Source: Mesostigma viride (lineage: Eukaryota; Streptophyta; Mesostigmatophyceae; Mesostigmatales; Mesostigmataceae). Taken from it: 64,000 nucleotides of DNA. The stretch spans positions 109,267-173,266 of the forward strand of contig RPFO01000144.1 in NCBI GenBank assembly GCA_009746045.1, in the 5' to 3' direction. The notes beneath the pieces were generated by a model, which had not been told where the DNA came from, did no database searches, and worked only from the letters and a program-made list of their open reading frames with translations. The position numbers were made by a program, and so were the translations under genes. Each line of letters starts with the position of its first letter. Position 1 is the stretch's first letter. Positions 1 through 64,000 of this stretch are shown here, piece by piece.

Positions 1-2700
1 TGCTACGACAAGCTGCTAGCGTGGAAACACCTGCGCCCCTACTATGACGGGCTGGGGCCGCCAGACCCACCCGCTGAGGAAGGTGTTAGGGACCCCAGTG
101 TGCAGGCTGGGGGTGAGGCGGGGGATCCCGGGGCTGCAGGGGGGGTGAGGGAGGGGGGTGGGCCTGATCAACCTACTCGCTCCCTTTCGCCGGAAGCTGG
201 GTTGCCACCTTCCAAGGGCGGTCCCGCTAGCGTGGGGTCGGGCGGTTCGGGGGTTGCCCCAGCCGTTGACGACCAGGAGAAGCAGCGCGCCGCGGTACTA
301 GCCCGCCTAGTGGAGCGCCTGCAGGAAGCTCGACGCGCTGCCACGGTGGGCGAGCAGCGGCAGTTGGGGGGCAACATCTCGCGGGCCGGCAAGGAGCGGG
401 TGGCCGAAGGTGGGATGGTACCACGGTCCGGTGAGGCGGGTGAGCCAGCCGAAGGTGGGGTTGCACGGGCCGGCGATGCTGGGGCATTGACCGCAGGTGC
501 GGGGCAGCAGGCTGGTGGCGTTGGCGGGTTGGCCGACGCGGGGCCTATATTGCCGAGTGAGGGCGACAGCCCCATGGACGACAGCGAGGCTGTCGAGGAG
601 AGAGGTGAGCCAGGTGAGCTGGTGGCTGCGGTCTCTAAGCTTGCCAACTGGTATTCGGACGGGCTGGGTAGTTGTCGATTGGAAGTGGACACTGACGCGG
701 TGGTGTGCTTGCTGGGTGAGGGAGTAGCCAGGCATCTGCCGTGCACTGCGTCCAGGTGGAGGTATGTGGAGGACTTCTCCGGGTTAGTGAGGATGCCGGT
801 GCGGGGTGAGGTAATGCTGACGATCTTGGGGAGAGAGACGCCGTTTTGCGTGCTCGAGGGGTATGATGGACCCGCCATTTTGGGACTTCCTTTCCTGGAC
901 CATCCTGATGTGCGGATTCAGAGCTCATTGCTAACCCGAGTAGGTCACGGGTCGATAGAGCTACAGTCTTACAAGTCAGTCGAGCCTCTCAGTCGCATTT
1001 GCAGCACAGTGGCTAGGCTAGCAGCACTGTCGGGTACGGAGGGTGTAGCGTGGGGCGCTGATCTCCCGCCAGCTGCTGACCTGGTTATGCCTGCATTACT
1101 GCATCCCAACAGCCTAGGAATCACTGAGAGGGACATAGCCGCACATTCCCCGATCACATTCCCTGAGCTTGTACTGCAGATGTCAACGCCTAGTGGGTTC
1201 TCGAGCTGGTGGTGTGCATTCCGTAAGGCACTTGAGGAGTGGCAGGGCTACGGGGTGTATGAACCGCTTGACACGGTGCCGAAGGGGGCTAGGGTGCTTC
1301 CGCTGAAGATGGTGCTGTCCCACAAGGTGAAGGCAGGTGTGGAGATCTGCTACGTGAGGCCGGTATCACAAGAGTTTGCAGGTACTAGCCCGCTGGCCAA
1401 GGAGGAGCTCTACACCCCAGGGATGGCATGGGACACGTTCAGGATGGTTAGCATGATTTTTCTTAGCTTTCTGGACGAAGGCAAGGACTACGCGTGTGCG
1501 TCCATTGATGTCAAGCGCGCATTCCCTAACTCTAGCGAGGAAGTGGCGCAAGAGGTGTGGGAGGGTACTCCGCCTCTAGTGGTGCAGACGCCGCCGTTCT
1601 GGAAGGAGGTGGTCACGTCTGAGTTCATGGGTCTGTGCAAGGCTATAGAGGGTCTGCAGAGCGCGTCGATTGTTTGGAGGATAACCCTCATGCGTGCGTT
1701 GGGTGAGATCGCAGAGTTTGAGGTATCTCCCTACGACCCATCGTTGTTCGTGGCGCGGATGCCGTCTGGTCCTATGTTTGTACAACTGCATGGGGATGAC
1801 CTGCGTGTCATTGCTTCGCGGTCAGCCTTGCATGCATTCTATGCTGACATTGGGCGGCGGTTCCCAGTGGGTGAGTTGCAGCAATTGGGGCCGCAGACGC
1901 CACGGGTGTTTTGCGGGGTGGTGCAAACCCTGCGGGTGGTGTCGGGTAAGCACCGGATGCACTTGGGTATTCCTGACAAGTACAGGGAGGAGCTCATGCG
2001 CGATGTGGAGGAGTTGTGCGCCAAGGGTTTGTGGAGCAGATTGCGTGGCAAGCTCGGCTGGATGGCAGCGGTGTGTGGGCCTGACCTGCTGGTGTTAAGT
2101 AGGACTGTGGATGAGGTGTTGGCTCTCGTTTCTCCGTCTGTGATCAAGCAGTATGTTGCTGAGAGCCAGGGTGTAGTACTTTCTGGTTTGTCTCTTTCTC
2201 AGCCGATTGTGTTGCATTGCTTTGCTGACACGTCTGGCGAGGGCAGGGAGCTCACCAAGACGAGAGCTCGCATGGGCGGCTTGTTTGTGCTCTCCAACCC
2301 CAAGGGCAATGGTTCGCTCTGTGGGTGGTACTCTAGGTTGTGCCGCAGGGTGGCAGTTGGATCGGATACCAATGAGTGTCGCGGGGTGTGTGAGTGCATC
2401 AAGGCGTCCCTGTATCTAGAGCAATTTCTGCGCTGGATGGGCAAGTGGCTGGATGCTCGTTTGGTACTGACCACGACTGTGCATACCGACAGTCAGCCGC
2501 TTGTGAGTTTCATTCTCAACAGCCTGTCCAGGACGCGCGACCTGGATTTCCTACTACTCAAGGAGCTGTCATACGCAGTGAGCGTGCTTCATCTACCTGG
2601 GAAGCTCAACCCGGCTGATGCGCTGACCAAGCTGTTCGCTGGGGCGCGCGACCAGTATCGCCTCCTGCGGATGGTCATGGGGGGCTCTCAGTTACGTTAA
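1..2700 (+). CDS. Element A pol, 3' part: integrase C-terminus, aspartic protease, reverse transcriptase, RNase H
   Basis: The frame is open from base 1 and its true start lies outside the window. Domains in order: the end of the integrase SH3-like tail; a 170-residue Gly/Ala-rich linker; a retropepsin-like protease with LEVDTDAVV (Asp at 688) and AILGLPFL (about 874-897); a Copia-type RT (RVT_2) with IDVKRAF (1504-1524) and HGDD (1789-1800) where YxDD is expected; and an RNase H with Asp residues near 2227 and 2488 and the ADALTKLF end typical of Copia. Protease therefore lies after integrase. The stop TAA (2698-2700) is supplied by the inserted palindrome. Removing the insert and one CTCTC repeat keeps the frame open to TAG at 3551, so the natural protein was about 12 residues longer past the break. 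The RT replicates the element's RNA in cytoplasmic particles in known relatives; whether this copy is active is unknown. Confidence 0.9.
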   Translation, partial: CYDKLLAWKHLRPYYDGLGPPDPPAEEGVRDPSVQAGGEAGDPGAAGGVREGGGPDQPTRSLSPEAGLPPSKGGPASVGSGGSGVAPAVDDQEKQRAAVLARLVERLQEARRAATVGEQRQLGGNISRAGKERVAEGGMVPRSGEAGEPAEGGVARAGDAGALTAGAGQQAGGVGGLADAGPILPSEGDSPMDDSEAVEERGEPGELVAAVSKLANWYSDGLGSCRLEVDTDAVVCLLGEGVARHLPCTASRWRYVEDFSGLVRMPVRGEVMLTILGRETPFCVLEGYDGPAILGLPFLDHPDVRIQSSLLTRVGHGSIELQSYKSVEPLSRICSTVARLAALSGTEGVAWGADLPPAADLVMPALLHPNSLGITERDIAAHSPITFPELVLQMSTPSGFSSWWCAFRKALEEWQGYGVYEPLDTVPKGARVLPLKMVLSHKVKAGVEICYVRPVSQEFAGTSPLAKEELYTPGMAWDTFRMVSMIFLSFLDEGKDYACASIDVKRAFPNSSEEVAQEVWEGTPPLVVQTPPFWKEVVTSEFMGLCKAIEGLQSASIVWRITLMRALGEIAEFEVSPYDPSLFVARMPSGPMFVQLHGDDLRVIASRSALHAFYADIGRRFPVGELQQLGPQTPRVFCGVVQTLRVVSGKHRMHLGIPDKYREELMRDVEELCAKGLWSRLRGKLGWMAAVCGPDLLVLSRTVDEVLALVSPSVIKQYVAESQGVVLSGLSLSQPIVLHCFADTSGEGRELTKTRARMGGLFVLSNPKGNGSLCGWYSRLCRRVAVGSDTNECRGVCECIKASLYLEQFLRWMGKWLDARLVLTTTVHTDSQPLVSFILNSLSRTRDLDFLLLKELSYAVSVLHLPGKLNPADALTKLFAGARDQYRLLRMVMGGSQLR

Positions 2701-15213: not shown

Positions 15214-18200
15214 AAGAGCCCTGCAGCCCTGCCCCTGACCTTGGAGACCTGCCTGCTGTCCATTGAGCTATCCACATACAGCTCCATGCAAATGGGTTGT
15301 GATAAATCCACTGCAGACAACAGAATGCCAGATGAAGCCCTGACCTGATCAGCCACCTTGGCAGACCCTAGCTCCACCAGCATGTCATCAGGCAACCTGG
15401 CTATGACCATAAGATCTGGCCTGGAAATGCCTGCCACCCAAGCAACCATGCCCCTCACCATGGGACACAGTGCCTGTGTGATGGTTGGAGGAAGCTTGCT
15501 AATGAGGGTCTCTTGATAATCATTGCCCCCCACCAGCAGCATACGCCACTCCCCCCCTTCTTCACCAGTGTGGCCTCCATGCCCACAAACAGCAGAGGCT
15601 CATTCTCCACCTGCCATTGCTCCCTACCCAGAGGAAACTTGGACTTAATGATGGAGATCAGCTCCTTAAGCCACGACGTGGGAGCTATCAGATGTAGGTC
15701 ATCCCCGTGCAGCGAAGCATACACTGGCAGGCCTTCCCATTGCCCCAGAAACAGACAGGGGTCTACAGGAGAGACCTTCAAGTTGCAATGTTCCTTCAGG
15801 AAACGGTTGAGAGTCTCCCTCCAGATTATTGGACTTGACCTCAGGCCCTCCAGGCCCTTGAGGATTTTAAGGAACTCCGTGTGGATGTCCCTTTTCCATA
15901 CAGCAGGCACCCTAACATAGAAAGGCGTCTTGCCCTCCCACTTTTCCTGTGCCACATCTGCATCCCCTCTAGAAATGCCCTCTTGAAGTCTACCACCACT
16001 GAGCCATAGTCCAAGCCCTTGTTGAGAAGGCCTAGAAATACACACAGCAGCAGCCTCCAAGTATCATGCAACATGCCAGGGGTATACAACTCCTCAGCAG
16101 TGCACTCACCAGTACCCTTGAACTCATTCAGCACTGGCCTGACATGTGGTACCTTGACCCCGTCCACCTCCTTCATCTTGATGACAAACTTGAGCTTGAG
16201 TAGACGTCGTGCAGGAGGCAGGTCATTGACAGGTTCCACGCATTTCTTGGAGATCCAGTCCTCCCCAGATTTAATCAAACCCAGTGTGACCTGGGGACAC
16301 ATAATGGGAGAGGACATGAGCTTCACCAGGCCTTGGTAGTTGATAGGGCTGTGTCCAGCAAGTGAGTGAGGACCAATGCCCAAACTGCTTGGATGACTAG
16401 CAGCTGGCAATATGAGGTCATCAACCAAGGGCTCCTGCCCCTGGCACACTTGCACACGCTTAACCGACCTGGTTACTGCACGTGATAGGTGAGTGGTCCT
16501 GAAATTAATCAGTGGGACCTGACCAGCCCCTTCCTTAGTCAGGAGAGAGGACGTGATCACTACTCCATCCTGGCATAGGAAATTCTGCCCCAGAAGAGCA
16601 GGTCCTTGATAGCCCTCCAAGACACAAAAAGCAGTGTCCTGTCCAAGGATAGGAATGAATACCTCACCCAGTACCTTCACGTGTACCCCGCCACTGAAGT
16701 CAGACACAAACTGATAGCTGGGTTCAGACATGCTGTACCCTGCTGCAGCCCTGGTCCCAATGATGGAAACCTGAGAATTAGTGTCTACCTCTAAGGCAGT
16801 GTCCAGCCCCAGATTGCCATGCCACCTGAGCTTGGCTACCTTGGGCTGCTTCTTGGCCCTTTGTAGAGCCCCAATCAATCCAGCCAAACTTGTCCCCCTG
16901 GGCTTGGTTAGTGCCTTGGGCTTGACAGTTGACTCCCCAGCTGTTGACCTTGCAGCCTGTTCAACAAGTACCTCTGCAACCTGGCCAGGGCTGACAGATT
17001 CCCCTGCAACAGATGTGGTCGTTGCGTCAGTGATGTCACCTGGGACCTGAAAATCCTGCAGATCCTGTGAGCCTTGTGCCTGACTGCCCTCATTCATCAG
17101 GTTAGGCTTGACATATGACCAACTCAGCCGGTGCACATGCTTTGGTTCGTCCTCCATGCTGACCAAGCATGCGTGGCTAGCTTCATCAACCTGGGTAACC
17201 ACCCCAGGACTCCAGCTACCACGTTTGCCATAAAGGCTAGGTTCCTTCCAAGCTAGGACCTTCTGACCCACTTGTGGCTCCAGCATCTTCCAACCCCGGT
17301 CCTTCTCCCTCAGCTTGGCAAAGGTGACATGTGCAGCATGTTTCCAGCCCTCCAGCACATGTGGTGGGCACAGGCCATGATATAGACCCATTGGGCTGAC
17401 AGCAACTCCATCATAGTAGAAGTTAACCCTGCTGTTCAGCTGCTGCTCCACGTTCCTCAGCCATGCACTCCTGACAAGTGCAGGTGCAGACAAGGGTACC
17501 CAGTCTTCAGAGATGATCAATTTCTTGACCTCCTGGATTGCCCTCTCGATAGCACCCTGCTGCCCATGAGCCTCCCTAGGTGTAACCAGCAACTCAGGAA
17601 GGGTAGGATCACCCTTGAGATGCTGAAACTGCATGTCCACCTGGATCCTTGTGGTAGGAAACTTGGCTCTTACATTCTGCAGGGCAGCCAGCAAGTACCT
17701 GTTCTTCATAGAAGGTAAATGCTCCAGCACCTTGTATTTCGTGTACCTGTCCACGCACACCAACAGTTGCATGCCCCTGATGTGTTGGATATCACACTGC
17801 AGATCACCAATGCTCTGAGGTAGAGCTTTGGCATGTGATTTCCTGGGCTTGTTGGAGGACAACTGGCACTTACACCGTGAGGCAGCTTGCTGACACGCCT
17901 TAAGAAGGGGTGCCCTGCCCATACGGAAGGCAAAGTTGTTTGACAGAGAAGTGGCATGCCCAAACATGTTGTGGATTCGGGCACCCAACTCCTGGTACAC
18001 AGAGGAAGCAGTCCCTGGCACAGTCAGGACTGTGCTGTCAGGTTGTCCAGCATCACCATGCTGACTTCCATCCTGTTCTGACTCAGAGCCTGAGTCACCC
18101 TGCTCATGCCCAACACCTGGACCGCCAGCAGGGACCACATGCATACCACCAGAGGCCTTCACACCCCTCTGTGGTTGTACATTGGTTTCTCTCAAAATGA

Positions 18201-18420: not shown

Positions 18421-18426
18421 CAGTCA
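18421..18426 (-). promoter_or_regulatory. Putative stop-codon readthrough signal UGA-CUG between gag and pol (element C)
   Basis: The gag stop TGA (18426-18424) is followed by CTG. Pol continues in the same frame with no other stop before the integrase. Elements A and D have UGA-CUA at the same place. UGA followed by CUA is a known leaky context in viral readthrough; use here is inferred. Confidence 0.7.
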
Positions 18427-19537
18427 CTGCTCCTTGTTGTCTTCTTGCTGACTGCCCTTTGAAGGCTGGCCTGCCTGGGACTTGTTGTTGTTCTTCTTGT
18501 TGTTGTTGTTATTCTTGTTGCTGCCCTGGCCCTGGGACTTCTTGAAGCTGGGACACTCCTTCTTGATGTGCCCCCACCCCTTGCACAGGTAGCATTGTAT
18601 CTTGGACTTGCCCTGGCCACTGCCCCCATTGTCAGACGCGTTGCCCTGCTTGGGCTGACCACCCACCCGCCTGAACACCGACTTGGAGTGTGACCTCCTG
18701 TCAGAATCAGGTGAATGATCTCCCTTGCGCTTGTTATGGTTGCCCCTACGCCCTCCTTGGCTTCGGTCAGCCTCAGACGTCTTGGAGCCACCCTGGGTAC
18801 GCCCGCCTGCCTGGGTAGCCTTCACTGCTGGCACTCCACCCTCAAACAGCTCCTCTGCCTCGAGTGCTTGTTTAATGATGACCTTGTAGGCCTTCAGGGT
18901 AGAGTGTGGGGCACACATGACTTTTAAGGAGCCACGTGTCGCCTTATCCAGCCCAGAAACCTTGAGCCAGTTGGTTAGGGCTATGTTATCAGCGACATTA
19001 AAGCCGTGAGCCCTGCCCTCCTCAACCATCTTACAATAGTTGAGAAAGTTCTGGATCAGGTCCCCCTTGACCTCCCACCCTTGATACTTGTCCTGCCAAT
19101 GGATGCCGACCTTCTTGCGTTGGTCTTCCAGCAGCTCCTTCAGCTCAGCCACGTACAGTGCCCAGGCCTTATTGGCCTTTTGCACTCCCTGGTTAGGTCC
19201 TTAATCTGGTCAGTACACTTGCCAAAAGTGCTACTTCCTATCCAGATTTGATAGTAATTTGTACCACCGTACAAGCTAGGGAACCCTTCCAATCCTCCAC
19301 AAACTCTTCAGCCTGCTTAGGCTTGGAGTCTGAGGTTACAGGCTGCAGCTGATTGACAATTAAAAGACCCTGTGTGGTGAGATCAAAGCCATGAACAGCT
19401 TGTGCATTATTATTATTGTGAGGAAGGTTGGTAATCTCTCCGGTAAGCCCCACGTCATCTACGTGAGCGGTTCCACTACCAGCACCCCCATTATTATTCC
19501 CACTGGCTGGACCCTTGCTACGGCGTCCCTCAGCCAT
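18424..19537 (-). pseudogene. Element C gag (capsid and CCHC nucleocapsid), with two small frameshifts
   Basis: It starts at ATG 19537 (MAEGRRSK), runs open to 19238, needs frame changes near 19240 and 19190, and then runs to the TGA at 18424. The middle matches the element D gag (both share an SST...K stretch before the conserved helical part). Near the end there is one zinc knuckle, CYLCKGWGHIKKEC (C-x2-C-x4-H-x4-C), in a Gln/Asn/Gly/Lys-rich tail. Gag forms the particle and binds element RNA in known relatives. The breaks may be consensus errors, since other homopolymer errors are likely in this element. Confidence 0.8.
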
Positions 19538-20416: not shown

Positions 20417-20440
20417 CTTTTTAACAGAGCGTGTAATACG

Positions 20441-36933: not shown

Positions 36934-38257
36934 ATGCCTAGGAGGGCAAGCCGGGGTGCGGCGACATTCGAGGAGCAACGGGAGCGAACGGCAGAGGAGG
37001 ACATCGCCAGAGAGGAAGGGGAGGCGATGGAGGAGAGGGGCGTGGAGGCGCCAGCTGGGCAACCTATCCCAGAGATGGACCCCAGGCCGGGAGAACACAC
37101 AAGCGGTGGCGTGATGGGCAAGCTGAGGCGGAGAAAGTCAAGCGTGCCAGGCGACCTACGGATGCAGTGGTGCTCACAACGCCTGGTGAGGAGGACGCCA
37201 TCGTCACCCCAGGTGTGCGTGCTGCAAAGCAAGCTGCTGTTCACGATAGGGTGTCTGGTATGTTGCCCGAGCGTTTGGAGGCTAGGATTGACCCTCCCCA
37301 GGCACCACCAGTGCGTGTGGGGAGTGTGTTGCCTGGCACCCGTCCATTTTCTGATGCTGTGACAGTCATGAATGGGCAGAAAGCGCTCAACCCTCCCTGA
37401 AGCAAGACAACCTGGATAAATGGCTTGATGACATGAAGCTAGTCGTGGGCTCTGTCGCAGCAGGTGTGGATATTGTCAGGGTGTTTCACTCTTCCACCGC
37501 AAACAAGGGGTAGTCTGAAAGGGTCAATGACATGGCTAGGCATGCTCTGAAAGAGGGGCACACTTGGCTACAGTTCCTGGATGACATCAAGGAGGAGTTT
37601 TCTGACAGGGTTCATAATCTCACCATGGAAAAGAAGAGAGAATTTGATGAGTTTGAGATCAAGGGTGAGGTGGCTGCAGAGCTGGCCAGGTTTGAGTTGA
37701 TCGTGGAGGCAGGCAAGAAGCAGGGCTTCAGTGTGACAGTCAGGGCAGCAGCAGACCACTTCTTTGATAAGATGGGCTTGTCAGAGGAAGGTAGGGCTAC
37801 TGCTAGGCAGCTCTGTGATCTCACTGATGGCACCTGGGGGGCTCTGAAGCGTGTGATACTAAACTTCAGGACCCGGGTCCCTACCTGCAAGGGTATCAGT
37901 TCTCAGGGAGGGTCAGCGTCTCAGGCTAGCCAGGGCAAGAACCGTACCCCATCTGGGACACGGTATGGTAGCAGGAGAAGGAAGCAGGCCCAGAAGGAGC
38001 AGAACCAGGGTGGTGGAGGAGGTCAGCAGGGGAACCAGAATCAGGGGAACCAGTCTGGCAACCGTAACAGCCATCAGCAGGGTAAGGGTGGTGGCCAGGG
38101 GCAGAATAACAATCAGGCCTCAGGCAACCAGAACAAGCAGGACAGCAAGGCCCCAGGGGGAGGGTCTGGCAAGAGCAAGTGTTTTGCTTGTGGCAAGGAA
38201 GGTCACTGGAAGAGGGATTGCCCAAACAAGAAGAAGGGGCAGTCTGATCAGAAGTGA
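36934..38257 (+). pseudogene. Element D gag, frameshifted
   Basis: It probably starts at ATG 36934 (MPRRASRGAATFEE), shifts frame between 37150 and 37200, stops at 37398 and near 37513, and is open again from 37515 to the TGA at 38255. The last 240 codons hold the conserved helical gag part, a Gln/Gly/Asn-rich tail and one zinc knuckle CFACGKEGHWKRDC. It aligns with element C gag through a shared SST...K stretch near 37490. At least two indels or stops are needed to explain it, so this copy is probably dead. Confidence 0.75.
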
Positions 38258-38260: not shown

Positions 38261-41200
38261 GTGAAGCAGTCCCGTGTACATAGTGAGACACCCTGTGGGG
38301 ACACAGCTTCACATGTAAATAAATCTGGGCAGGGTGCCACCTCTGATCAGCACCAGGGGTGTACTGATGTTCTCATTCCACAAGATTGCATGCATGCTGC
38401 AGCACAACAATCCCCTCAACTGTCAACAGGTGGAGGGTCCCCAGACAGGGTTGGCTCTGGGAGCCTAGATGCTCTGCTGGGAGGGTCTGCTGGGTCCTCT
38501 GGATCCAAGATGCAGAAGGTGGATGTTGCGTCCTCACACGCAGGGCCCGTCCAGGCGTCTTCCCAGGTGCGTAATCTGGCTAGGCAACTGAGCTACACGG
38601 ATGCTGGACGCAGGCTGCACAATATCTTTGGTCACACAGCCATGGCTGAGATGTTTGGTTGGAAGATTGGAGATGAGCCACTGAGGGAAGCATGCAGGGC
38701 TGCAGCTGAGCAATGTGCCTTGTAAGGAGAATGCTGCCAAGAAGCCAAGGTCCCATGCTAGGGAGCCTGCCAGGGAGAAGGGGGACATCCAGGTAGACGT
38801 CCAGCATATCAGGGGCTTATACATTTTGGTGGCAGTGGACAGATTTAGCAGGTACAGGCTGCTCCAGATTCTGCCAGATATGAAGGGGAATACCCTGCTG
38901 CTGGGCTTGCAGACTCTCTTACCAGGCTTTGGGGTGTACAAGACAGTACAGGCTGATATTCAGTTTGAGTGCCTACTGTCACAGCAGGAGCAACTGCCAT
39001 GCAAGCTGCTGGTCACGCCCAGGGAGAGCCATGGACAGCAAGGTGCTGTGGAGAGATCCATCAGGGAGGTCAAGACCGTAGTGCTGGCAGAACCTAAGGT
39101 GCCACTGGTAGCATCTGCTTTGGAGAGGGCAGTGTGGACCAGGCAGGTGGAAGAACAGTTGAACCTCAGAATAAACTACTATTATGACGGGGTGGCTGTC
39201 AATCCTGTAGCACTGCAGTTTGGATGCTAGCCCAGGAAGTGGTCCAGGCATGCTTGAGGAAAGCAGACAGGGTGTTTGCTCAGTTGAGACGCAAGGATAG
39301 GGGCTGGAATGTGCTGAGGCCTCAGGTGGGGCTGAAGGTCAGAATGTGGAAGGAGCCATCAATGCAGGGCAAGAGGGGCAAGTGGCAGAACGGGGTGGTG
39401 ACCTGTGTGGAAGATGCCAATCGTTCCTGCCTTGTGGCCTTGGAGAGTAATCCCAGGCATGTTTACAGGTTGAGCTGGGCCAACGTCAAGGAACGCAAGC
39501 CACATGCAATCTGGCCTGCAGACGGGCCTGGACCCCAGTGTTGGCTGGAGGGCCAGGTTAAGGACCAGGTAGTTGATGTGCCTGTCACTGACGTGGGAGG
39601 TGGCTATCCCTCTGATGATGATGAGGTGCAGGAGGCAACTGCATCACCTGTGGTGGAGCCAACGGGGGCTGGGCCTGCACCAGGGTCCAAGAGGCCACTC
39701 ATGGCAGACATTGTCCGGTCGCTCATGTTCAACAAGCACAAGGATCCCAAGGTATCTAAGTTGACTGAATGGGGTTCTTGCTGGGCTGCTACCCTAGAAG
39801 TGGATACTAACTCAGAGGTGTCTATCATCAGGGTGGAGGATGCTCAGGGCCTGAAGGTGAATAAGGCTGGCTGCAGGGCAGTGAGTGACTTTACGGGCAC
39901 TGTAACAATGAAGATCCTAGGGGAAGTGACTGTGCCTATCCTGGGTGTCCCCACTGCGTTCTGTGTGGTGGAAGGGTACCAGGGGCCTGCCATTTTGGGC
40001 CAGAATTTCTTGTGCATGCCAGGAGTGACTCTGTCAGCAGATGAGCTTGCACTAGAAGGTCATGGCAGTTTGCCCCTCCAGAGATATCACTACTCCAAGG
40101 GTCTAGCTGTGGCAGTCAAGGCTGTGAAGGGGCAGCAGAGTGTGGGGCCTGAAGGCAAGGAGCCCATTGCTGAGGACTTGTTGATCATCCCAACCACCCT
40201 AGATCCACGGGACTTGGGGGTGCACAAGTACCAGATTGCTGGTCACAGTCCTATTTCCTGGCACCAGTTGGTAGAGTTGATGCAAAGCCCCAAGATGGCT
40301 AAGGCATGGATTCTAGGGTTTGTCTCCAGTGGGCATGACTGGATAGTGTCTAACTGTGCTGAGCCTGTGGATGAGTTGCCCAGGGAGCATCAGTTGCTAA
40401 GGCTCTTGTTTGTGCTCAAGCTGAAGGAGATAGACGGTGTGCAGGTGCCACATGTGAGGCCAGTTGTGACTGAGTACCATGGCACGGGGGAGCTGACAGA
40501 TGAGGAGTTGTATACGCCTGGGATGCTGCATGATACCTGGAGGATTGTTCTGTGTATATATCTGTCTTTCCTGGTCAAGGGCATTGCGTACAGCTCTGTG
40601 CTGATTGATTTCAAGAGGGCTTTTCTTAAAGGTGATGTGGAGCAGGCCAAGGAGACGTGGCGTGATATCCCTCCCTTCTTTGTAACAGTGCCCAAGGTGT
40701 GGAGAGCAGAGATCAAGTCAAAATATCTCAGAATACTCAAGGGTTTGGAGGGTCTCAGGTCCAGCCCTATCATCTGGAGAAAGAGCCTGGAAAAGTTTCT
40801 GAAAACTCACTGTGGCTTTACTGTGTCTCCAGTTGATCCTTGCTTGTTCCAGAGTACTCATGAAGGGTTGCCTGTGTTTGCATCTCTGCATGGAGATGAC
40901 CTGCACCTTCTAGGGCCTCCTGAGTGGGTGGATTCAGTACTGTCCAAGATCCAGAAGAGGTTTGAGTTAGGAAAGGTCCAGCACATGAAGCAGGATGAGC
41001 CCATGGTGTTTTGTGGAATGCAGGCCACGCTGATCAAGAGGGCAGGTACTTGGTTTATCAAGATGGAGGGTGGCAACAACTATCCTCAGCAGATCATTGA
41101 TGCCCTCCAGCAGCCCATTACCCAGGCCAGGTGTGCCACAATCAGGGGAATGTTGGCTTGGCTAGCTAGCATTTGTGCCCCAGATTTGTTGGTGCTGAGT

Positions 41201-41797
41201 AGGCTCACAGATGCTCAGCTGGTTGAGGTAGGGGCAGAGCAGGTGGTTGAGTCTGTCAGGAGCTCACCTCCACTCATACTGGCAGCTGTGGACTTGTACA
41301 AACCACTCAACATGGTGCTTTTTGTGGACAGTTCCATGGACAGCAGGAAGGTGACGGATGTCAGGGGTAGGGCAGCAGCACTCATTACACTACAACAGGA
41401 GCACACTTCTCTGGTCAGCTGGTACAGTAGGTTACAGAACAGGGTGACGCCCAGCAGTGACATTGCTGAGTGCAGGGCAATATGTGAGGGGCTACACACT
41501 GCTCTTTACCTCAGGGAGTTATTCTACCAGCTCTGTCAGGTAGCTTCCTGTAGCTTGCAGCTGCACACACTGGTCAAGACAGACAGCATGGGCATGGTGC
41601 AGTTTGTGCACAGACAGCTCGCCAGGAGCAGGGATCTGGATTATTTGTTGCTGAAGGAGATGTCTTACCTTGCTCATCTTGAACATGTGCCTGGTGTTGA
41701 CAACCCAGCAGACGCCCTCACCAAGCTGGAGAGCAAGGCTGAGCTACAATACCCTGTGCTCAAAGGGCTCATGGACCCCTTTTCTGGTGGGACTTGA
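38258..41797 (+). pseudogene. Element D pol (integrase, protease, RT, RNase H) with two compensating frameshifts
   Basis: Integrase begins in the gag frame (38258-38725) with a His-rich zinc site (IFGHT), moves to another frame for the catalytic core (38715-39230; Asp near 38796, Asp near 38953, Glu near 39050), and returns at 39224. From there 857 codons are open: SH3-like integrase tail, protease LEVDTNSEVSII (Asp at 39803) with AILGQNFL, RT with LIDFKRAF (near 40608) and HGDD (40889-40900), RNase H with VDSSMDS (near 41330), KTDSMG (near 41580) and ADALTKL, stop at 41795-41797. Protease again follows integrase. The protease-to-RNase H part looks intact. Confidence 0.88.
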
Positions 41798-48377: not shown

Positions 48378-49810
48378 CGACGGCACTCACATGTACATAC
48401 ACCGCGCACGAAAGGGGTGGCTGCACACACACGTACATCCACCGCGCACGCAAGGGGCGGCTGCACACACACATACATACACCATGCACGCAAGGGGCGA
48501 GTGCAAAAACATGTACATACACCGCGCACGCAAGGGGCAACTGCCCACACATGGACATACACCATGCACGCAAGGGGCGGCTGCACACACATGTACATCC
48601 ACCGCGCACGCAAGGGGCGAGTGCACACACACGTACACACACCGCGCACGCAAGGGGCGGCTGCACACACACGTACACACACCATGCACGCAATTGCCGG
48701 CATGCACACACACGTACATCCACCGCGCACGCAAGGGGCAACTGCACACACATGTACACACACCGCGCACGCTTGGGGCAGCTGCACTCACATGTACACA
48801 CACCGCGCACGCTTGGGGCGGCTGCACACACACGTACCTACACCGCGCACGCAAGGGGCAGCTGCACACACACGTACATACACCGCGCACGCACGGGGCA
48901 ACTGCACACACATGTACATACACCGCGCAACCACGGGGCGGCTGCACACACACGTACATACACCGCGCACGCAAGGGGCGGCTGCACACATACGTACCTA
49001 CACCGCGCACGCAAGGGGCGACTGCACACACATGTACATCCACCGCGCACGCAAGGGCCGGCTGCACACACACGTACACACACCGCGCACGCAAGGGCCG
49101 GCTGCACACACACGTACATACACCGCGCACGCAAGGGGCGGCTGCACACACACGTACACACACCGCGCACGCAAGGGGCAGCTGCACACACACGTACATA
49201 CACCATGCACGCAAGGGGCTGCACACACACTTACACACACCATGCACGCAAGGGCCGGCATGCACACACACTGGCATACACCGCGCACGCAAGGGGCGGC
49301 TGCACACACGTACATACACCGCGCACGCAAGGGGCGAGTGCACACACACGTACACACACCGCGCACGCAAGGGGCGGTAGCACACACACGTACACACACC
49401 ATGCACGCAATTGCCGGCATGCACACACACGTACATCCACTGCGCACGCAAGGGGCAACTGCACACACATGTACACACGCTTGGGGCGGCTGCACTCACA
49501 TGTACACACACCGCGCACGCAAGGGCCGGCTGCACACACACGTACATACACCGCGCACGCAAGGGGCAACTGCACACACACGTACACACACCATGCACGC
49601 AAGGGCCGGCTGCACTCACATGTACACACACCATGCACGCAAGGGCCGGCTGCACACACACTTACACACACAATGCACGCTTGGGGCAACGGCACTCACA
49701 TGTACATACACCATGCACGCAAGGGGCGGCTGCACACACACGTACACACACCATGCACGCAAGGAGCGGCTTCACGCACAGGTACACTCACCATGCACGC
49801 AAGGGGCGGC
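48378..49810. repeat. 40-bp minisatellite array 9, right part (about 36 units)
   Basis: Same unit; begins like 7640-7830 of array 2 and then follows array 1. Ends in GCGGC (49806-49810), the left target duplication of element A. Confidence 0.95.
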
Positions 49811-50393
49811 TGTTATATTATAGGTTTCAGCTCGCAGTCACATGGAAATAATTAATGATTGTGTGCCGGTACTTAGCCATTTTGTGGTTCGAGGCGTTCG
49901 GGTTAATTCGGCGCATTGGGACTTAGCCGTTTTGAGGTTCGGCTGAATTTTGGCTTGTGTGATCCACAACGATTTAAGTTACGCTGTGTGCGTTATGCCT
50001 CGTGAGTTACGCCCTAGACTTTGGCTGTGAGGCACTGGTCCGGTACTGAGGTGCGGACTAGGATTCTGGGTACTGCCGGCTGGCGTGACAAGTGGCGAGA
50101 TACTGGTGTGTGTCGATTGGTCGGTACTCGGCTGGTGTGTTGTAACGGAGATGTGTAACGGAGATGCGTTCCCAGGCTTGCGTCGGTGCCTAGCGCTGCA
50201 GGCTAGCCTAGCCGCCTGACAGACGATGATGATCCAAAAGCCAGCATTGTGTTGCGGCGGTCCAACGGTTGTTGCTGCTATGCTGGCAATGGCTATGGTT
50301 GCGCTGGTAAATTAAGCTGGGGGCTTGGCTCTGAGTTTGTAACCTGATTACCGTAAAATTATCATTTAATAAAATTCGAACTCGATTTTAACA
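49811..50393 (+). repeat. Element A 5' LTR (583 bp)
   Basis: TGTTATATTATAGG to CTCGATTTTAACA. The following bases TGTACTAGGACGGGG are the expected primer site position but do not look like the tRNA-Met site seen in B and N. Confidence 0.95.
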
Positions 50394-50433
50394 TGTACTA
50401 GGACGGGGTTAATTAATAAGGAAAAACGTAGCA

Positions 50434-51407
50434 ATGTCGGATCAAGAACAAGAAGAGACGGATTCGAGAAAGCGTACTGGGTGGAAGGATTTAAGAAATG
50501 AGAAGAATTTGATAGAGCTGTGCAAAACACGAGTCGGGACAGTTCCTCTTGATGCGGCAGTGACATTGGTAGAGGATTTCTGTGACAGGTTTGAGGCGTT
50601 TGTGGCGGATCATGCAGATAAAACCGAGGATCTGTATGGGCTATTCCGGGATGCCGGAATGTTTAGAGCCGACAACGCCATTCTAGTAAATTGCCTGCGC
50701 TCCTGCCGTGACGAGAAAATCGAGGGCGCTGCAATTGGAGGTAGGTTGCGTGCAGCACTTCTTGAATCGAAAGCATCTGCCAAGTCTCGTCATGTTGGCA
50801 TTTATAATTGGGTGCCGAAGCGTCCCTACACACTCGACCTTCTCGCTTTGAGAAATGCGAGAAACGAGAGTGTAAAGGATGGCATTCCGGTGGTGGAACT
50901 GGCGGTGGTGGACCGTTATGTTCGCAATGCCAAGGACCTTAATTTCCAGAATGCCATGGCAGCTCTCAAGCGTGAGAAAGCCGAGGATGATCTCAATAAG
51001 GCGATTGAGGTTATCACGGGCATTGTCGAGGGTGAGGAGAGGGACATGGTGGCCCAACTGCGGGCCCAAGGTAAGCTCAATGAGCTGGGTCTGATTTCCC
51101 CTGCATTACCGCCTGTCGCTGTGAATTCCATTCCTTCTTCTGGTGGTGCCCAAGGTGGTGCTGCTAAAGCGCCGGATGGGGGCAAGGTGGCCGCCATTGC
51201 GGGCGGTGGTGGCTCTAGCGGCGCGGGGCCCAGCGGGCCTCGGGGCAATGGGGGCCCGATGCGTAGGGGCAATAAGGGCAGCTTCAGCCGAGCGCAGCGC
51301 ATGCCTGGGAAGCGATGGCAGCAAGGTAGACAGCAGCCATACCCGCAGCAGCAGCAGCATGCACAACAGCCTGCAGCTGCGTCGCCGTATCAGCAGCAAC
51401 AGCGCTC

Positions 51408-51448
<41 letters not shown>

Positions 51449-51660
51449 GTGCACAGCCGGCGGTGCATGGGGCATGCTTTGTGTGTGGGAAGTCGGGACA
51501 CATGGCAGCCAATTGCTATCACAGGCACAAGGACACTCTCCAGGCACGCAGCAACGCCAACTCGCAAGCACCAGCGGTGTGTCACAGGTGTGGGCAGCCA
51601 GGGCACTTTGCGAGGGACACTCACCTGTGCCCAGCGGCCCAGGGCGGTGGCCGTAGGTGA
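50434..51660 (+). CDS. Element A Gag with two zinc knuckles (408 aa)
   Basis: ATG 50434 is the first ATG after the LTR leader. Residues 1-220 form a helical capsid-like part that I do not match to a named family. A Gly/Ala-rich hinge follows, then a long Gln tract (near 51330-51450, CAG/CAA codons). The C-terminus has CFVCGKSGHMAANC, a standard knuckle, and a second, CHRCGQPGHFARDTHLC, whose last spacing is 7 in place of 4. The stop TGA (51658-51660) is in frame with pol. Gag packages the element RNA in known relatives. Confidence 0.9.
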
Positions 51661-51663
51661 CTA
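51658..51663 (+). promoter_or_regulatory. Putative stop-codon readthrough signal UGA-CUA between gag and pol (element A)
   Basis: TGA at 51658-51660 is followed by CTAGG. The next ATG (51676) is in the same frame, with no other stop between. UGA-CUA is a known leaky context in viruses that make fusion proteins by readthrough. Confidence 0.78.
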
Positions 51664-54600
51664 GGTGAGGTTGGCATGCGGGCTGGTGCAGGGGAGGCCA
51701 GCTCGACCCCCCAGGTGTACTCACCCTACCTGGGTGCTCAGGTGGCGGTGCTAGCAGGCACTAGGGAGAAGGGGGGCCACCTGGAGCATGGGACAGCTGC
51801 AGAAGGGGGAAGGGCAGTGTCTCAGGGGATGGGGAATGAGTGGGTTGGAGGCGCTGCAGGGGGGCACACCGCAGCGGGCGGGCCGCCGGTAGGTGGTACC
51901 TCACCAGACCCTAGTTCAGCACATGTGAATGGTGCGGCGTGCGGTGAGGCAGCCGGGTCGCTCAGTGTACTTAACATGGCCACACGGTTACACAAAGCAC
52001 TAGGGCATGGGCATGCGGGTGAGGAGTGGGCAGCCATGCTAGGGTTCACAGACTTAGTGGATATGTGCAAGCAGGTGTGGTTAAGGTGTCGCAAATGTCA
52101 GGAGCGGGCACCTAAACCGCACAAGTTCCATGCACGTAGGCCAGAGTTTGAGCGAGGTGTGGTGCAGTGTGATGTATTCATGTATGACGACAGAGACTAC
52201 GTGCTTGCAGTGGGCAGGTTCTCCAGGTACAAGGTCATGGTGCCACTTGAGCGCAAGCTGAAGGAGCACTTGTGTGATGCATTGCGTCTCCTCAGGTCCA
52301 AGTTTGGTGTGGCATCTGTGTTGGAGTGCGATCAGCAGTTTGAGTGCTGTGTGGGTGAGCCGGGTGTGGGGAAGATAGAACTTGCTGGGGTAGCTGACCA
52401 CGAGCACCAGGGTCTTGTCGAGCGCCACATACAGACATCGAAGCAGGTGATGGCATGCATGGAGAAGATGAGAACAGGCTCGTATCGTGAGAGGCTGGTG
52501 ATCTGCAATGAGATAGAGCAATGTCTCAACAACCGTGTAATGGTCAAGGTGTTGGGTGGGCAGGTGGCAGTCACGCCTAAGGGAGTGGAGATGGGCTTGT
52601 TGTCACCTGAGGCTGTGGAAGAGTACAGGGATTATTTGAGCGATCGTTACGTGCGCATGGTAAAGATGGACCTGCGACGTGGACAGGTTTATGTGCCGTG
52701 CGTGAACGCCAGGGTCTGGGCCTACGCGGAGGGCAGTCATGGAAAACGGGGCCTATGGAGAGGTCCCGGTGTGGTCAAGGAGATCGATCCTGATCACATG
52801 CTTGCTTCGGTAGCGCTAGAGGACAGTTGCTACGACAAGCTGCTAGCGTGGAAACACCTGCGCCCCTACTATGACGGGCTGGGGCCGCCAGACCCACCCG
52901 CTGAGGAAGGTGTTAGGGACCCCAGTGTGCAGGCTGGGGGTGAGGCGGGGGATCCCGGGGCTGCAGGGGGGGTGAGGGAGGGGGGTGGGCCTGATCAACC
53001 TACTCGCTCCCTTTCGCCGGAAGCTGGGTTGCCACCTTCCAAGGGCGGTCCCGCTAGCGTGGGGTCGGGCGGTTCGGGGGTTGCCCCAGCCGTTGACGAC
53101 CAGGAGAAGCAGCGCGCCGCGGTACTAGCCCGCCTAGTGGAGCGCCTGCAGGAAGCTCGACGCGCTGCCACGGTGGGCGAGCAGCGGCAGTTGGGGGGCA
53201 ACATCTCGCGGGCCGGCAAGGAGCGGGTGGCCGAAGGTGGGATGGTACCACGGTCCGGTGAGGCGGGTGAGCCAGCCGAAGGTGGGGTTGCACGGGCCGG
53301 CGATGCTGGGGCATTGACCGCAGGTGCGGGGCAGCAGGCTGGTGGCGTTGGCGGGTTGGCCGACGCGGGGCCTATATTGCCGAGTGAGGGCGACAGCCCC
53401 ATGGACGACAGCGAGGCTGTCGAGGAGAGAGGTGAGCCAGGTGAGCTGGTGGCTGCGGTCTCTAAGCTTGCCAACTGGTATTCGGACGGGCTGGGTAGTT
53501 GTCGATTGGAAGTGGACACTGACGCGGTGGTGTGCTTGCTGGGTGAGGGAGTAGCCAGGCATCTGCCGTGCACTGCGTCCAGGTGGAGGTATGTGGAGGA
53601 CTTCTCCGGGTTAGTGAGGATGCCGGTGCGGGGTGAGGTAATGCTGACGATCTTGGGGAGAGAGACGCCGTTTTGCGTGCTCGAGGGGTATGATGGACCC
53701 GCCATTTTGGGACTTCCTTTCCTGGACCATCCTGATGTGCGGATTCAGAGCTCATTGCTAACCCGAGTAGGTCACGGGTCGATAGAGCTACAGTCTTACA
53801 AGTCAGTCGAGCCTCTCAGTCGCATTTGCAGCACAGTGGCTAGGCTAGCAGCACTGTCGGGTACGGAGGGTGTAGCGTGGGGCGCTGATCTCCCGCCAGC
53901 TGCTGACCTGTTATGCCTGCATTACTGCATCCCAACAGCCTAGGAATCACTGAGAGGGACATAGCCGCACATTCCCCGATCACATTCCCTGAGCTTGTAC
54001 TGCAGATGTCAACGCCTAGTGGGTTCTCGAGCTGGTGGTGTGCATTCCGTAGGCACTTGAGGAGTGGCAGGGCTACGGGGTGTATGAACCGCTTGACACG
54101 GTGCCGAAGGGGGCTAGGGTGCTTCCGCTGAAGATGGTGCTGTCCCACAAGGTGAAGGCAGGTGTGGAGATCTGCTACGTGAGGCCGGTATCACAAGAGT
54201 TTGCAGGTACTAGCCCGCTGGCCAAGGAGGAGCTCTACACCCCAGGGATGGCATGGGACACGTTCAGGATGGTTAGCATGATTTTTCTTAGCTTTCTGGA
54301 CGAAGGCAAGGACTACGCGTGTGCGTCCATTGATGTCAAGCGCGCATTCCCTAACTCTAGCGAGGAAGTGGCGCAAGAGGTGTGGGAGGGTACTCCGCCT
54401 CTAGTGGTGCAGACGCCGCCGTTCTGGAAGGAGGTGGTCACGTCTGAGTTCATGGGTCTGTGCAAGGCTATAGAGGGTCTGCAGAGCGCGTCGATTGTTT
54501 GGAGGATAACCCTCATGCGTGCGTTGGGTGAGATCGCAGAGTTTGAGGTATCTCCCTACGACCCATCGTTGTTCGTGGCGCGGATGCCGTCTGGTCCTAT

Positions 54601-55524
54601 GTTTGTACAACTGCATGGGGATGACCTGCGTGTCATTGCTTCGCGGTCAGCCTTGCATGCATTCTATGCTGACATTGGGCGGCGGTTCCCAGTGGGTGAG
54701 TTGCAGCAATTGGGGCCGCAGACGCCACGGGTGTTTTGCGGGGTGGTGCAAACCCTGCGGGTGGTGTCGGGTAAGCACCGGATGCACTTGGGTATTCCTG
54801 ACAAGTACAGGGAGGAGCTCATGCGCGATGTGGAGGAGTTGTGCGCCAAGGGTTTGTGGAGCAGATTGCGTGGCAAGCTCGGCTGGATGGCAGCGGTGTG
54901 TGGGCCTGACCTGCTGGTGTTAAGTAGGACTGTGGATGAGGTGTTGGCTCTCGTTTCTCCGTCTGTGATCAAGCAGTATGTTGCTGAGAGCCAGGGTGTA
55001 GTACTTTCTGGTTTGTCTCTTTCTCAGCCGATTGTGTTGCATTGCTTTGCTGACACGTCTGGCGAGGGCAGGGAGCTCACCAAGACGAGAGCTCGCATGG
55101 GCGGCTTGTTTGTGCTCTCCAACCCCAAGGGCAATGGTTCGCTCTGTGGGTGGTACTCTAGGTTGTGCCGCAGGGTGGCAGTTGGATCGGATACCAATGA
55201 GTGTCGCGGGGTGTGTGAGTGCATCAAGGCGTCCCTGTATCTAGAGCAATTTCTGCGCTGGATGGGCAAGTGGCTGGATGCTCGTTTGGTACTGACCACG
55301 ACTGTGCATACCGACAGTCAGCCGCTTGTGAGTTTCATTCTCAACAGCCTGTCCAGGACGCGCGACCTGGATTTCCTACTACTCAAGGAGCTGTCATAAG
55401 CAGTGAGCGTGCTTCATCTACCTGGGAAGCTCAACCCGGCTGATGCGCTGACCAAGCTGTTCGCTGGGGCGCGCGACCAGTATCGCCTCCTGCGGATGGT
55501 CATGGGGGGCTCTCAGTTACGTTA
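51661..55524 (+). pseudogene. Element A pol, full length but broken in this copy
   Basis: After the readthrough stop there is a 100-residue linker, a zinc site (LHKALGH...CRKC), the integrase core (Asp near 52171, Asp near 52330, Glu near 52420), an SH3-like tail (near 52740-52870), a low-complexity linker, protease LEVDTDAVV (Asp at 53515) with AILGLPFL, RT with IDVKRAF and HGDD (54614-54625), and RNase H. Against the left copy (1-2700) it has single-base deletions near 53911 and 54052 and TAC changed to TAA at 55397-55399. The last bases are replaced by the palindromic insert. The left copy has an open frame over the shared region, so these breaks may be consensus errors. Confidence 0.88.
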
Positions 55525-56335
55525 AATAGTGCCGGAACCTTTTGCCGCCTGAGGCAAATCGGTCCGTAACACTATTTTGCCCGGAATAACCACTTCCGAG
55601 CACCCAAGTTAATTCGGCCGAATTAACTTGGGTGCTCGGAAGTGGTTATTCCGGGCAAAATAGTGTTACGGACCGATTTGCCTCAGGCGGCAAAAGGTTC
55701 CGGCACTATTTAACGTAACTAAAACCTGGCCTCGTGGAGGGGGGACGAAGAGCCCGAGACATCCGCCTAGGCCGCTGAGCACGCACCACTAAATGCGCCG
55801 GAGCTGCCTCAGTGAGGATTCGAACCCCTGACCTCCAAGGTGCACAGGTTTTAGTTACGTTAAATAGTGACGGAACCTTTCCGAGCACCCAAGTTAATTC
55901 GGCCGAATTAACTTGGGTGCTCGGAAGTGGTTATTCCGGGCAAAATAGTGTTCCGGCCCGATTTGCCTCAGTGGGCAAAAGGTTCCGGCACTGTTTAACC
56001 TAACTAAAACCTGTGCAACTTGGAGGTCAGGGGTTCGGATCCGGACAGCTCCGGCGCATTTAGTGGTGCGTGCTCAGTGGCCTAGGCGGATGTCTCATAT
56101 TCAACCCACCCTCCACGAGGCCAGGTTTTAGTTAGGTTAAACAGTGCCGGAACCTTTTGCCCACTGAGGCAAATCGGGCCGGAACACTATTTTGCCCGGA
56201 ATAACCACTTCCGAGCACCCAAGTTAATTCGGCCGAATTAACTTGGGTGCTCGGAAGTGGTTATTCCGGGCAAAATAGTGTTCCGGCCCGATTTGCCTCA
56301 GTGGGCAAAAGGTTCCGGCACTGTTTAACCTAACT
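55515..56335. mobile_element. Palindromic element, block 1 (right copy)
   Basis: Same as 2690-3510, including the CTCTC flanks. Confidence 0.93.
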
Positions 56336-56852
56336 CTCTCTCGGGGATCTGCAAGGACTGCTGGAGGGTTTGATGTAGATCTGGGCAATGGACCATGTGG
56401 CATGAGAATTTCAGGCTGGCAGGCGTTGGGACGCATTACATGTGGGCTGGGAATGACCCCTGGATCGAGCCCATCTCAGGATGACCCAGTACGGTTGGAT
56501 AACTCTATCTTGGTGGGGATGTACCTGATGGGATGGTCCTGGGTTGAGGACCTGATCGGAGGCGGGGACTGTGGTTGGTGATGTGTGAAAGTCCGTGGGT
56601 TCAGGGTGTGGTTGGTGTTGGAGCCGAGGGTGGTCTTTTGATCAGTCTTGTATTCTCGCTTGCTTACTTGACTTACTGACAGATGCTGGTTGTACTACCA
56701 GGGCGTGAATGGGCGCCAAGTGAGGGGTGCGGACTCCCCTAGTACATAGCGTCCTGTGTTAGTGCTTCCTGGTGAGGTGTCTGTCGGTTACTCTCGAGCT
56801 GAGTGAGATAATGATTGGTGGGATGTGTGACTGCTCGGGAAAAAGCGGCTGG

Positions 56853-57435
56853 TGTTATATTATAGGTTTCAGCTCGCAGTCACATGGAAATAATTAATGA
56901 TTGTGTGCCGGTACTTAGCCATTTTGTGGTTCGAGGCGTTCGGGTTAATTCGGCGCATTGGGACTTAGCCGTTTTGAGGTTCGGCTGAATTTTGGCTTGT
57001 GTGATCCACAACGATTTAAGTTACGCTGTGTGCGTTATGCCTCGTGAGTTACGCCCTAGACTTTGGCTGTGAGGCACTGGTCCGGTACTGAGGTGCGGAC
57101 TAGGATTCTGGGTACTGCCGGCTGGCGTGACAAGTGGCGAGATACTGGTGTGTGTCGATTGGTCGGTACTCGGCTGGTGTGTTGTAACGGAGATGTGTAA
57201 CGGAGATGCGTTCCCAGGCTTGCGTCGGTGCCTAGCGCTGCAGGCTAGCCTAGCCGCCTGACAGACGATGATGATCCAAAAGCCAGCATTGTGTTGCGGC
57301 GGTCCAACGGTTGTTGCTGCTATGCTGGCAATGGCTATGGTTGCGCTGGTAAATTAAGCTGGGGGCTTGGCTCTGAGTTTGTAACCTGATTACCGTAAAA
57401 TTATCATTTAATAAAATTCGAACTCGATTTTAACA
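56853..57435 (+). repeat. Element A 3' LTR (right copy)
   Basis: Partner of 49811-50393 and copy of 4028-4610; followed by GCGGC. Confidence 0.95.
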
Positions 57436-59544
57436 GCGGCTGCACACACACGTACACACACCGCGCACGCAAGGGACGGCTGCACACACACGTACATACA
57501 CCGCGCACGCAAGGGGCAACGGCACTCACATGTACATACACCATGCACGCAAGGGGCGGCTGCACACACACGTACACACACCATGCACGCAAGGAGCGAC
57601 TTCACGCACAGGTACACACACCATGCACGCAAGGTTCGGCTGCACACACATGTACATCCACCGCGCACGCAAGGGGCGAGTGCAAACACATGTACATACA
57701 CCATGCACGCAAGGGGCGGCTGCACACACATGTACATCCACCGCGCACGCAAGGGGCGAGTGCACACACACGTACACACACCGCGCACGCAAGGGGCGGC
57801 TGCACACACACGTACACACACCATGCACGCAATTGCCGGCATGCACACACACGTACATCCACCGCGCACGCAAGGGGCAACTGCACACACATGTACACAC
57901 ACCGCGCACGCTTGGGGCAGCTGCACTCACATGTACACACACCGCGCACGCAAGGGCCGGCTGCACACACACGTACATACACCGCGCACGCAAGGGGCAA
58001 CTGCACACACATGTACACACACCGCGCACGCAAGGGGCAACTGCACACACACGTACACACACCGCGCACGCTTGGGGCGGCTGCACACACACGTACCTAC
58101 ACCGCGCACGCAAGGGGCGGCTGCACACACACGTACATCCACCGCGCACGCAAGGGGCAACTGCACACACATGTACACACACCGCGCACGCTTGGGGCAG
58201 CTGCACTCACATGTACACACACCGCGCACGCAAGGGCCGGCTGCACACACACGTACATCCACCGCGCACGCAAGGGGCAACTGCACACACACCTACATAC
58301 ACCGCGCACGCAAGGGGCGGCTTCACACACACGTACACACACCGCGCACGCAAGGGGCAACTGCACACACATGTACACACACCGCGCACGCTTGGGGCGG
58401 CTGCACACACACGTACCTACACCGCGCACGCAAGGGGCGGCTGCACACACACGTACATACACCGCGCACGCAAGGGGCAACTGCACACACATGTACATAC
58501 ACCGCGCAACCACGGGGCGGCTGCACACACACGTACATACACCGCGCACGCAAGGGGCGGCTGCACACATACGTACCTACACCGCGCACCCAAGGGGCGA
58601 CTGCACACACATGTACATCCACCGCGCACGCAAGGGCCGGCTGCACACACACGTACACACACCATGCACGCAAGGGCCGGCTGCACACACACGTACATAC
58701 ACCGCGCACGCAAGGGGCGGCTGCACACACACGTACACACACCGCGCACGCAAGGGGCGGCTGCACACACACGTACATACACCATGCACGCAAGGGGCTG
58801 CACACACACTTACACACACCATGCACGCAAGGGCCGGCATGCACACACACTGGCATACACCGCGCACGCAAGGGGCGGCTGCACCCACATGTACATACAC
58901 CATGCACGCAAGGACAAGGATTCACACACACGTACACACACCGCGCACGCAAGGGGCGGCTGCACACACACGTACACACACCATGCACGCAATTGCCGGC
59001 ATGCACACACACGTACATCCACCGCGCACGCAAGGGGCAACTGCACACACATGTACACACGCTTGGGGCGGCTGCACTCACATGTACACACACCGCGCAC
59101 GCAAGGGCCGGCTGCACACACACTGGCATACACCGCGCACGCAAGGGGCGGCTGCACACACACTTACACACACAATGCACGCAATTAGGGGCGACGGCAC
59201 TCACATGTACATACTGTTGGGCGGCTGCACTCACATGTACATACACCGCGCATGCAAGGGGCAACTGCACACACACGTACACACACCATGCACGCAAGGG
59301 CCGGCATGCACACACACGTACATACACTGCGCACGCAAGGGGCAACTGCACACACACGTACACACACCATGCACGGAAGGGACGGCTGCACTCACATGTA
59401 CACACACCATGCACGCAAGGGCCGGCTGCACACACACGTACATACACCATGCACGCAAGGGCCGGCATGCACACACACGTACATACACTGCGCACGCAAG
59501 GGGCAACTGCACACACACGTACACACACCATGCACGGAAGGGAC
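57436..59544. repeat. 40-bp minisatellite array 1 (right copy)
   Basis: Copy of 4611-6719. Confidence 0.95.
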
Positions 59545-60418: not shown

Positions 60419-60983
60419 GGGACGGCTGCACTCACATGTACATCCACCGCGCAACCACGGGGCGGCTGCACTCACATGTACATACACCGCGCACGAAAGG
60501 GGTGGCTGCACACACACGTACATCCACCGCGCACGCAAGGGGCGGCTGCACACACACATACATACACCATGCACGCAAGGGGCGAGTGCAAAAACATGTA
60601 CATACACCGCGCACGCAAGGGGCAACTGCCCACACATGGACATTCACTGCGCACGCAAGGGGAGGCTGCATTAACACGTACATACACCGCGCACGCAAGG
60701 GACGGCTGCACACACACGTACACACACCATGCACGCAAGGGCCGGCTGCACACACACGTACATACACCGCGCACGCAAGGGGCGGCTGCACACACACGTA
60801 CATACACCATGCACGCAAGGGCCGGCTGCACACACATGTACATCCACCGCGCACGCAAGGGGCGAGTGCACACACACGTACACACACCGCGCACGCAAGG
60901 GCCGGCTGCACACACACGTACATCCACCGCGCACGCAAGGGGCAACTGCACACACACGTACATACACCGCGCACGCAAGGGGC
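60419..60983. repeat. 40-bp minisatellite array 2 (right copy)
   Basis: Copy of 7594-8158. Confidence 0.95.
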
Positions 60984-63988: not shown

Positions 63989-64000
63989 CCAATACCTTCT

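Follow-up and report, generated by a model that had tools for sequence, protein, structure and literature searches.

Where in pol can the protease of a long terminal repeat (LTR) retrotransposon stand? This question is raised by a stretch of 64,000 nucleotides from Mesostigma viride (assembly GCA_009746045.1, contig RPFO01000144.1, positions 109,267 to 173,266), hereafter called the window, in which three elements, A, C and D, carry a protease-like segment between the integrase and the reverse transcriptase (RT). Based on motif coordinates, all three show the same succession of a gag with CCHC, an integrase with HHCC and DDE, a DT(N/D)...ILG segment, an RT with HGDD and an RNase H, the latter being only partly present in C. 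The order gag-integrase-protease-RT-RNase H had been claimed in a preliminary description of this DNA, with motif positions that agree with ours, and the integrase-protease-RT order of A, C and D is confirmed as real.

Domain order in A, C and D

The same description held that three separate elements share this order, rather than one rearranged copy. This is indeed the case, since the families of A, C and D and the database protein P0001 all agree, with RT/RNase H identities of 38-57% among A, the D family and P0001. Within the D family, the full order was observed in 28 of 30 loci, the other two running from protease to RT only; because all 30 come from the head of a ranking of near-identical recent copies, they do not represent independent events. 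Among eight longer loci, seven have the integrase, protease and RT motifs in order and in one frame, and L056 has the protease frame only.

Next, ten proteins from A, C, D and B (a duplicate of A) were scanned with Pfam. The profile check proposed earlier was borne out for RVT_2, matched in A, B, D and C with E-values of 8.6e-9, 3.6e-8, 5.1e-7 and 0.0013, respectively, and weakly for rve in C (0.027) and D (0.0052), both below the cut-off. It failed for rve in A, without any match, and for RVP, without a match in the ten proteins; RVT_1 did not match any of the ten at E 10 either. Compared to the curated RVT_2 cut-off of 31.6 bits, A (35.8) and B (33.7) lie above, and D (30.0), C (18.9) and P0001 (15.5) below. 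The features are as follows.

Element A
49811..50393, + strand: 5' LTR, 583 bp, TGTT...AACA, 0/583 mismatches with the 3' LTR
50413..51660, + strand: gag frame, two CCHC zinc knuckles (zf-CCHC 3.2e-9), stop TGA then CTAG
51991..52431, + strand: integrase HHCC and DDE core (D 52165-52179, second D 52324-52341, E 52414-52431), from motifs and the alignment of four integrases, without Pfam rve match
52690..52865 (approximate bounds), + strand: SH3/Tudor-like C-terminal part of the integrase, from profile positions 265-305
53452..53799, + strand: retropepsin-like protease, DTD (53506-53529) and ILG (53701-53724), from the family alignment and the model of P0001; the B copy alone has no Pfam match
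54098..54691, + strand: RT of Copia type, DVKRAF (54329-54349) and HGDD (54614-54625), RVT_2 8.6e-9
55049..55396, + strand: RNase H part, from its motif; in copy B it can be aligned with the RNase H of canonical Copia elements
56853..57435, + strand: 3' LTR, identical to the 5' LTR

Element B
1..2697, + strand: duplicate of A, with protease (625-972), RT (1273-1863) and RNase H, RVT_2 3.6e-8

Element C
18424..19200, - strand: gag frame, one CCHC knuckle (zf-CCHC 0.0019, below cut-off), stop TGA then CTGT
17536..17973, - strand: integrase HHCC and DDE core (motifs from 17785-17799 to 17536-17553), rve 0.027, below cut-off
16501..16848, - strand: retropepsin-like protease, DTN (16768-16794), from motifs and the family alignment, without Pfam match alone
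15455..15993, - strand: RT over two frames (motif 15973-15993, HGDD 15698-15709), RVT_2 0.0013, below cut-off

Element D
37514..38257, + strand: gag frame, one CCHC knuckle (zf-CCHC 1.5e-7), stop TGA then CTAG
38618..39062, + strand: integrase HHCC and DDE core (motifs from 38790-38810 to 39045-39062), rve 0.0052, below cut-off
39743..40087, + strand: retropepsin-like protease, DTN (39794-39820), from motifs and the family alignment, without Pfam match alone
40373..40990, + strand: RT with HGDD (motifs 40604-40624 and 40889-40900), RVT_2 5.1e-7, 30.0 bits, slightly under the 31.6 cut-off
41324..41794, + strand: RNase H part, from its motif; the family copy L049 is in the RNase H comparison

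The protease segment and its surroundings

A retropepsin fold of the DTN/ILG segment had been named as the test on which the protease assignment would stand or fall. In a structure model of P0001, whose alignment includes window members, the segment is a retropepsin. The triad reads DTN in C and D, as first described; A reads DTD. An alignment of eight members shows conservation of the Asp, the Thr, the flap region and ILG; Asp and Thr are invariant, with N or D instead of G as the third triad residue in all eight. Half of the relocated segments (4/8) match PF13975, and retroviral-type proteases were matched as well. A search of the whole genome (439.9 Mb assembly, 2243 contigs) with PF00077 (RVP) gave no match, with three candidates scored.

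The ratio of nonsynonymous to synonymous substitutions (dN/dS, NG86) between L049, a D-family locus, and L053 is 0.10 for the protease, 0.12 for the integrase, 0.056 for the RT and 0.048 for RNase H, and the protease of A against L057 gives 0.096, values to be read with dS near saturation and with two protease pairs that gave no dS. YN00 matched NG86 for the RT and RNase H (0.053 and 0.048) and gave no value for the integrase, linker and protease. For the gag-integrase spacer of the same two loci, dN/dS is 0.65 (NG86) and 1.31 (YN00). These substitution patterns show a protease that is conserved and under purifying selection, and a dN/dS of about 0.10 together with the conserved Asp, Thr, flap and ILG is as expected for a working enzyme. 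It would probably act as a homodimer that uses its DT(N/D) loop.

The statement that no protease motif lies between gag and integrase also holds. Pfam found no protease match in four gag-to-HHCC spacers (A, C, the D family and the L053 family), the spacer of C giving one chance match (DUF1302 at 0.039). A triplet search upstream of the integrase found no DSG or DTA in A or P0001. As candidates for a second, upstream protease, one DSG in C and one DTA in the D family were considered and rejected, both being without an ILG partner.

In the four aligned integrases (A, C, the D family and the L053 family), two His, the Cys pair and D, D and E are kept. Three of the four match rve, at best with 0.003, below the cut-off. 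Compared to PDB, the integrase profile returned 20 rows, nine named integrase or Pol protein (retroviral integrases, best E 0.013), nine PHD finger protein 1/19, matched by the C-terminal part, and two coatomer. The PHD finger protein 1 and 19 chains are matched by profile positions 265-305 at E 0.25-0.53, in a region which we take to be their Tudor domain. Judged from these matches, the integrase looks complete, SH3/Tudor-like end included, before the protease starts. The Tudor-like end (L049 3080-4099 and relatives) is a possible chromatin-targeting module.

Copies, expression and competing explanations

Elements with the integrase-protease-RT order are very abundant and have multiplied recently. 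As scoring was restricted to the best candidates, the copy numbers given here are minimum values. With the D protease as query, the best 150 of 4795 candidates include at least 126 rows at 100% protein identity and at least 21 from a 79%-identity family. Among the best 150 for A, at least 37 rows are at 100%, followed by families at 78% and 74% and, at the end of the listed matches, by C-family copies at 45-48%; for C, all 150 best scored rows are at 99% identity or more. Thirteen of the 30 D-family loci can be read from HHCC to HGDD without interruption in a single frame. Of the eight longer loci, four were selected for their 1179-aa frame; their LTR stretches measure 340-398 bases and are 99.7-100% identical. 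According to the available text of the genome paper, M. viride carries 60,339 LTR retroelements (PMC6947507). An A-related subfamily (L065) counts at least 19 copies among the matches listed, with matches split at an identical place in each; it multiplied regardless of a frame change inside the protease, read in the DNA of one of the 19.

A protein database search with the D pol gave P0001 and P0002 only, P0002 being a Mesvir1 gene model with 60% identity to D over 20% of the query. Residues 540-1214 of P0001 matched only P0001 itself in a protein search, and viral contigs scanned with P0001 contained no relative. The C pol gave 12 PDB matches with phmmer (E 0.98-4.1), none relevant.

In the window, A lies between the two copies of its 5-bp target site duplication (GCGGC, 49806-49810 and 57436-57440), and its pol is split in two frames (51661-53943 and 54053-55399). 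The two ends of the window are a direct duplication, 1-11184 and 52828-64000 being 99.8% identical, so B belongs to the same family as A; its frame is unbroken from the integrase end through protease, RT and RNase H, the window edge cutting the integrase. Tandem repeats with a 40-bp unit form long arrays (4611-6717, 7594-8158, 9043-10555, about 48380-49812 and 57436-59542); A is located between two of them, and GCGGC belongs to the repeat unit. Further units, about 330 bases long and bearing inverted repeats, are located between the arrays and, within A, on the downstream side of RNase H (55511-56341, 2686-3516, 6714-7597 and 8159-9043). Both C and D have broken reading frames in the window, long open frames of both families being present elsewhere in the genome, and no LTR pair was found for either within the window. 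C is interrupted near 15213 by a unit (12542-15213) with 512-bp terminal repeats that are 99.6% identical. Upstream of gag, C (19706-20620, -) and D (35945-36865, +) each carry an additional open reading frame, about 300 aa long, with no Pfam family above cut-off.

The gag frame closes on TGA, which precedes CTAG in A, D, L049-L052 and L053 and CTGT in C, and in all of these pol continues in the same frame as gag. TGA-CTAG is present in 27 of the 30 D loci, the search string being unmatched in three. UGA-CUA is a leaky stop context. RNA folding 3' of the gag stop, with a model for structures other than pseudoknots, gave no consistent signal, and a tRNA scan found none.

In all likelihood, A, C and D represent a Copia-related lineage with a pol of integrase-protease-RT-RNase H. 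Gag would be made from the first frame, and a fraction of ribosomes would read through the UGA in its UGA-CU(A/G) context to give Gag-integrase-protease-RT-RNase H, which the retropepsin, probably a homodimer, would then cut. RVT_2 and an integrase that precedes the RT speak for a Copia lineage; as the canonical order is not found, the lineage is called Copia-related. The likely origin would be loss of the canonical Copia protease and insertion of a different retropepsin between integrase and RT. This fuller account, in which an unrelated DTN/DTD retropepsin was captured into a working Gag-integrase-protease-RT polyprotein made by UGA readthrough, is put forward tentatively.

Several observations weigh against the favoured reading. 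A model of D, built from five sequences only and of poor quality, gave no clear retropepsin match, and the catalytic D-[TS]-G of retropepsins is lost through the replacement of Gly in all eight aligned members. This replacement, and the spread of the 19-copy subfamily despite its frame change, would suit a retropepsin fold that does not cut but has a structural or dimerising role, with maturation by a host protease or none. We consider this unlikely: the segment keeps its Asp, Thr, flap region and ILG, with a dN/dS of about 0.10, departures from DTG also occur among the aligned canonical Copia proteases of this genome (DSA in three of four, DTG in one), and the subfamily may have moved with the enzyme supplied in trans. 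That RT, RNase H and the integrase-before-RT arrangement are otherwise Copia-like would also fit a canonical Copia protease that moved within pol by domain shuffle instead of being replaced, which is possible rather than probable. In a profile comparison, the relocated proteases matched the four canonical ones with a probability of 0.3%, which is weak evidence against such a move because the two profiles have little depth (Neff about 2). The canonical proteases match Pol_BBD, whereas the relocated ones match PF13975 and retroviral-type proteases, a pattern that would fit an exchange for a different retropepsin.

The lineage might also be a separate LTR retrotransposon superfamily. RT/RNase H identity is 38-85% within the lineage (four members, C being left out because its RT is broken) and 20-26% against nine canonical copies from the same genome, of which the pieces L012, L013, L016 and L017 are truncated; RVT_2 is below cut-off in C, D and P0001; and the protease follows the integrase, instead of lying between gag and integrase as in Ty1/Copia. 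A superfamily of its own is nevertheless quite improbable, as RVT_2 is above cut-off in A and B, RVT_1 is unmatched, the integrase precedes the RT, RNase H ends in ADALTK, close to the aligned Copia ending, and A has TG..CA ends with a 5-bp target site duplication. Finally, the position of A and B in the 99.8% duplication could point to an assembly artefact or a single rearranged copy. The chance of this is practically negligible, the order being common to 28 of 30 separate loci and to three diverged families and P0001.

Meaning and comparison with known systems

LTR retrotransposon superfamilies are defined by domain order, and the usual order may be less fixed than assumed. Pipelines expecting the protease before the integrase may miss or misclassify elements like these; in the available text of a large plant survey, elements of unexpected order were discarded as likely mispredictions (PMC6317226). 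Polyprotein maturation in relation to protease position, and cutting by DTN/DTD proteases, become directly testable. If an active retropepsin was indeed captured, protease position in LTR retrotransposons would not be fixed, and the Gly of DTG would be replaceable in an active retropepsin.

The preliminary description knew of no Copia lineage with this order. A phrase search of the open PMC library, subscription journals lying outside its scope, likewise found no published lineage, and the order does not occur in the available parts of PMC6317226, PMC2774666 and PMC12440569; absence from print is not established by this. The words Copia and Gypsy are both absent from the main text of the Mesostigma genome paper (PMC6947507).

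Ten loci of the same genome with strong RVT_2 were used as canonical controls. Four have DTGA and HMTPH before HLRLGH, the DTGA-type pattern not being found in the other six, and Pol_BBD (PF22936) precedes rve in all four control pols scanned, three of them from these six loci. PF22936 had no match in the lineage proteins scanned. The canonical protease profile returned no retropepsin from PDB, with one chance match. According to the available text of PMC6317226, the canonical Copia order has the protease between gag and integrase. The lineage resembles Ty1/Copia in its RVT_2-type RT, the integrase upstream of it and RNase H last, and, in A only, in TG..CA LTRs with a 5-bp target site duplication; besides protease position, it differs in a protease that is not of the Pol_BBD type and in the HGDD catalytic box of the RT. 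From Ty3/Gypsy it differs in lacking an RVT_1-type RT and in an integrase that precedes the RT instead of coming last. Troyka keeps the Gypsy order in the available text of PMC12440569. A changed pol order is described for the Gmr1 lineage of Ty3/Gypsy (Goodwin and Poulter 2002, cited in Llorens 2009, PMC2774666, as far as its available text goes); there a Gypsy integrase takes a Copia-like position, whereas here the protease is relocated relative to the integrase in a Copia-type pol. As in Tca2 of Candida albicans, one UGA separates gag and pol, although the accessible text on Tca2 describes a potential 3' pseudoknot (PMC2194720), a structure outside the folding model used here. The protease itself resembles Ddi1-type and retroviral proteases in its modelled fold, Asp-Thr loop, flap region and ILG, and differs from them in its third triad residue, Asn or Asp, and in being embedded between integrase and RT.
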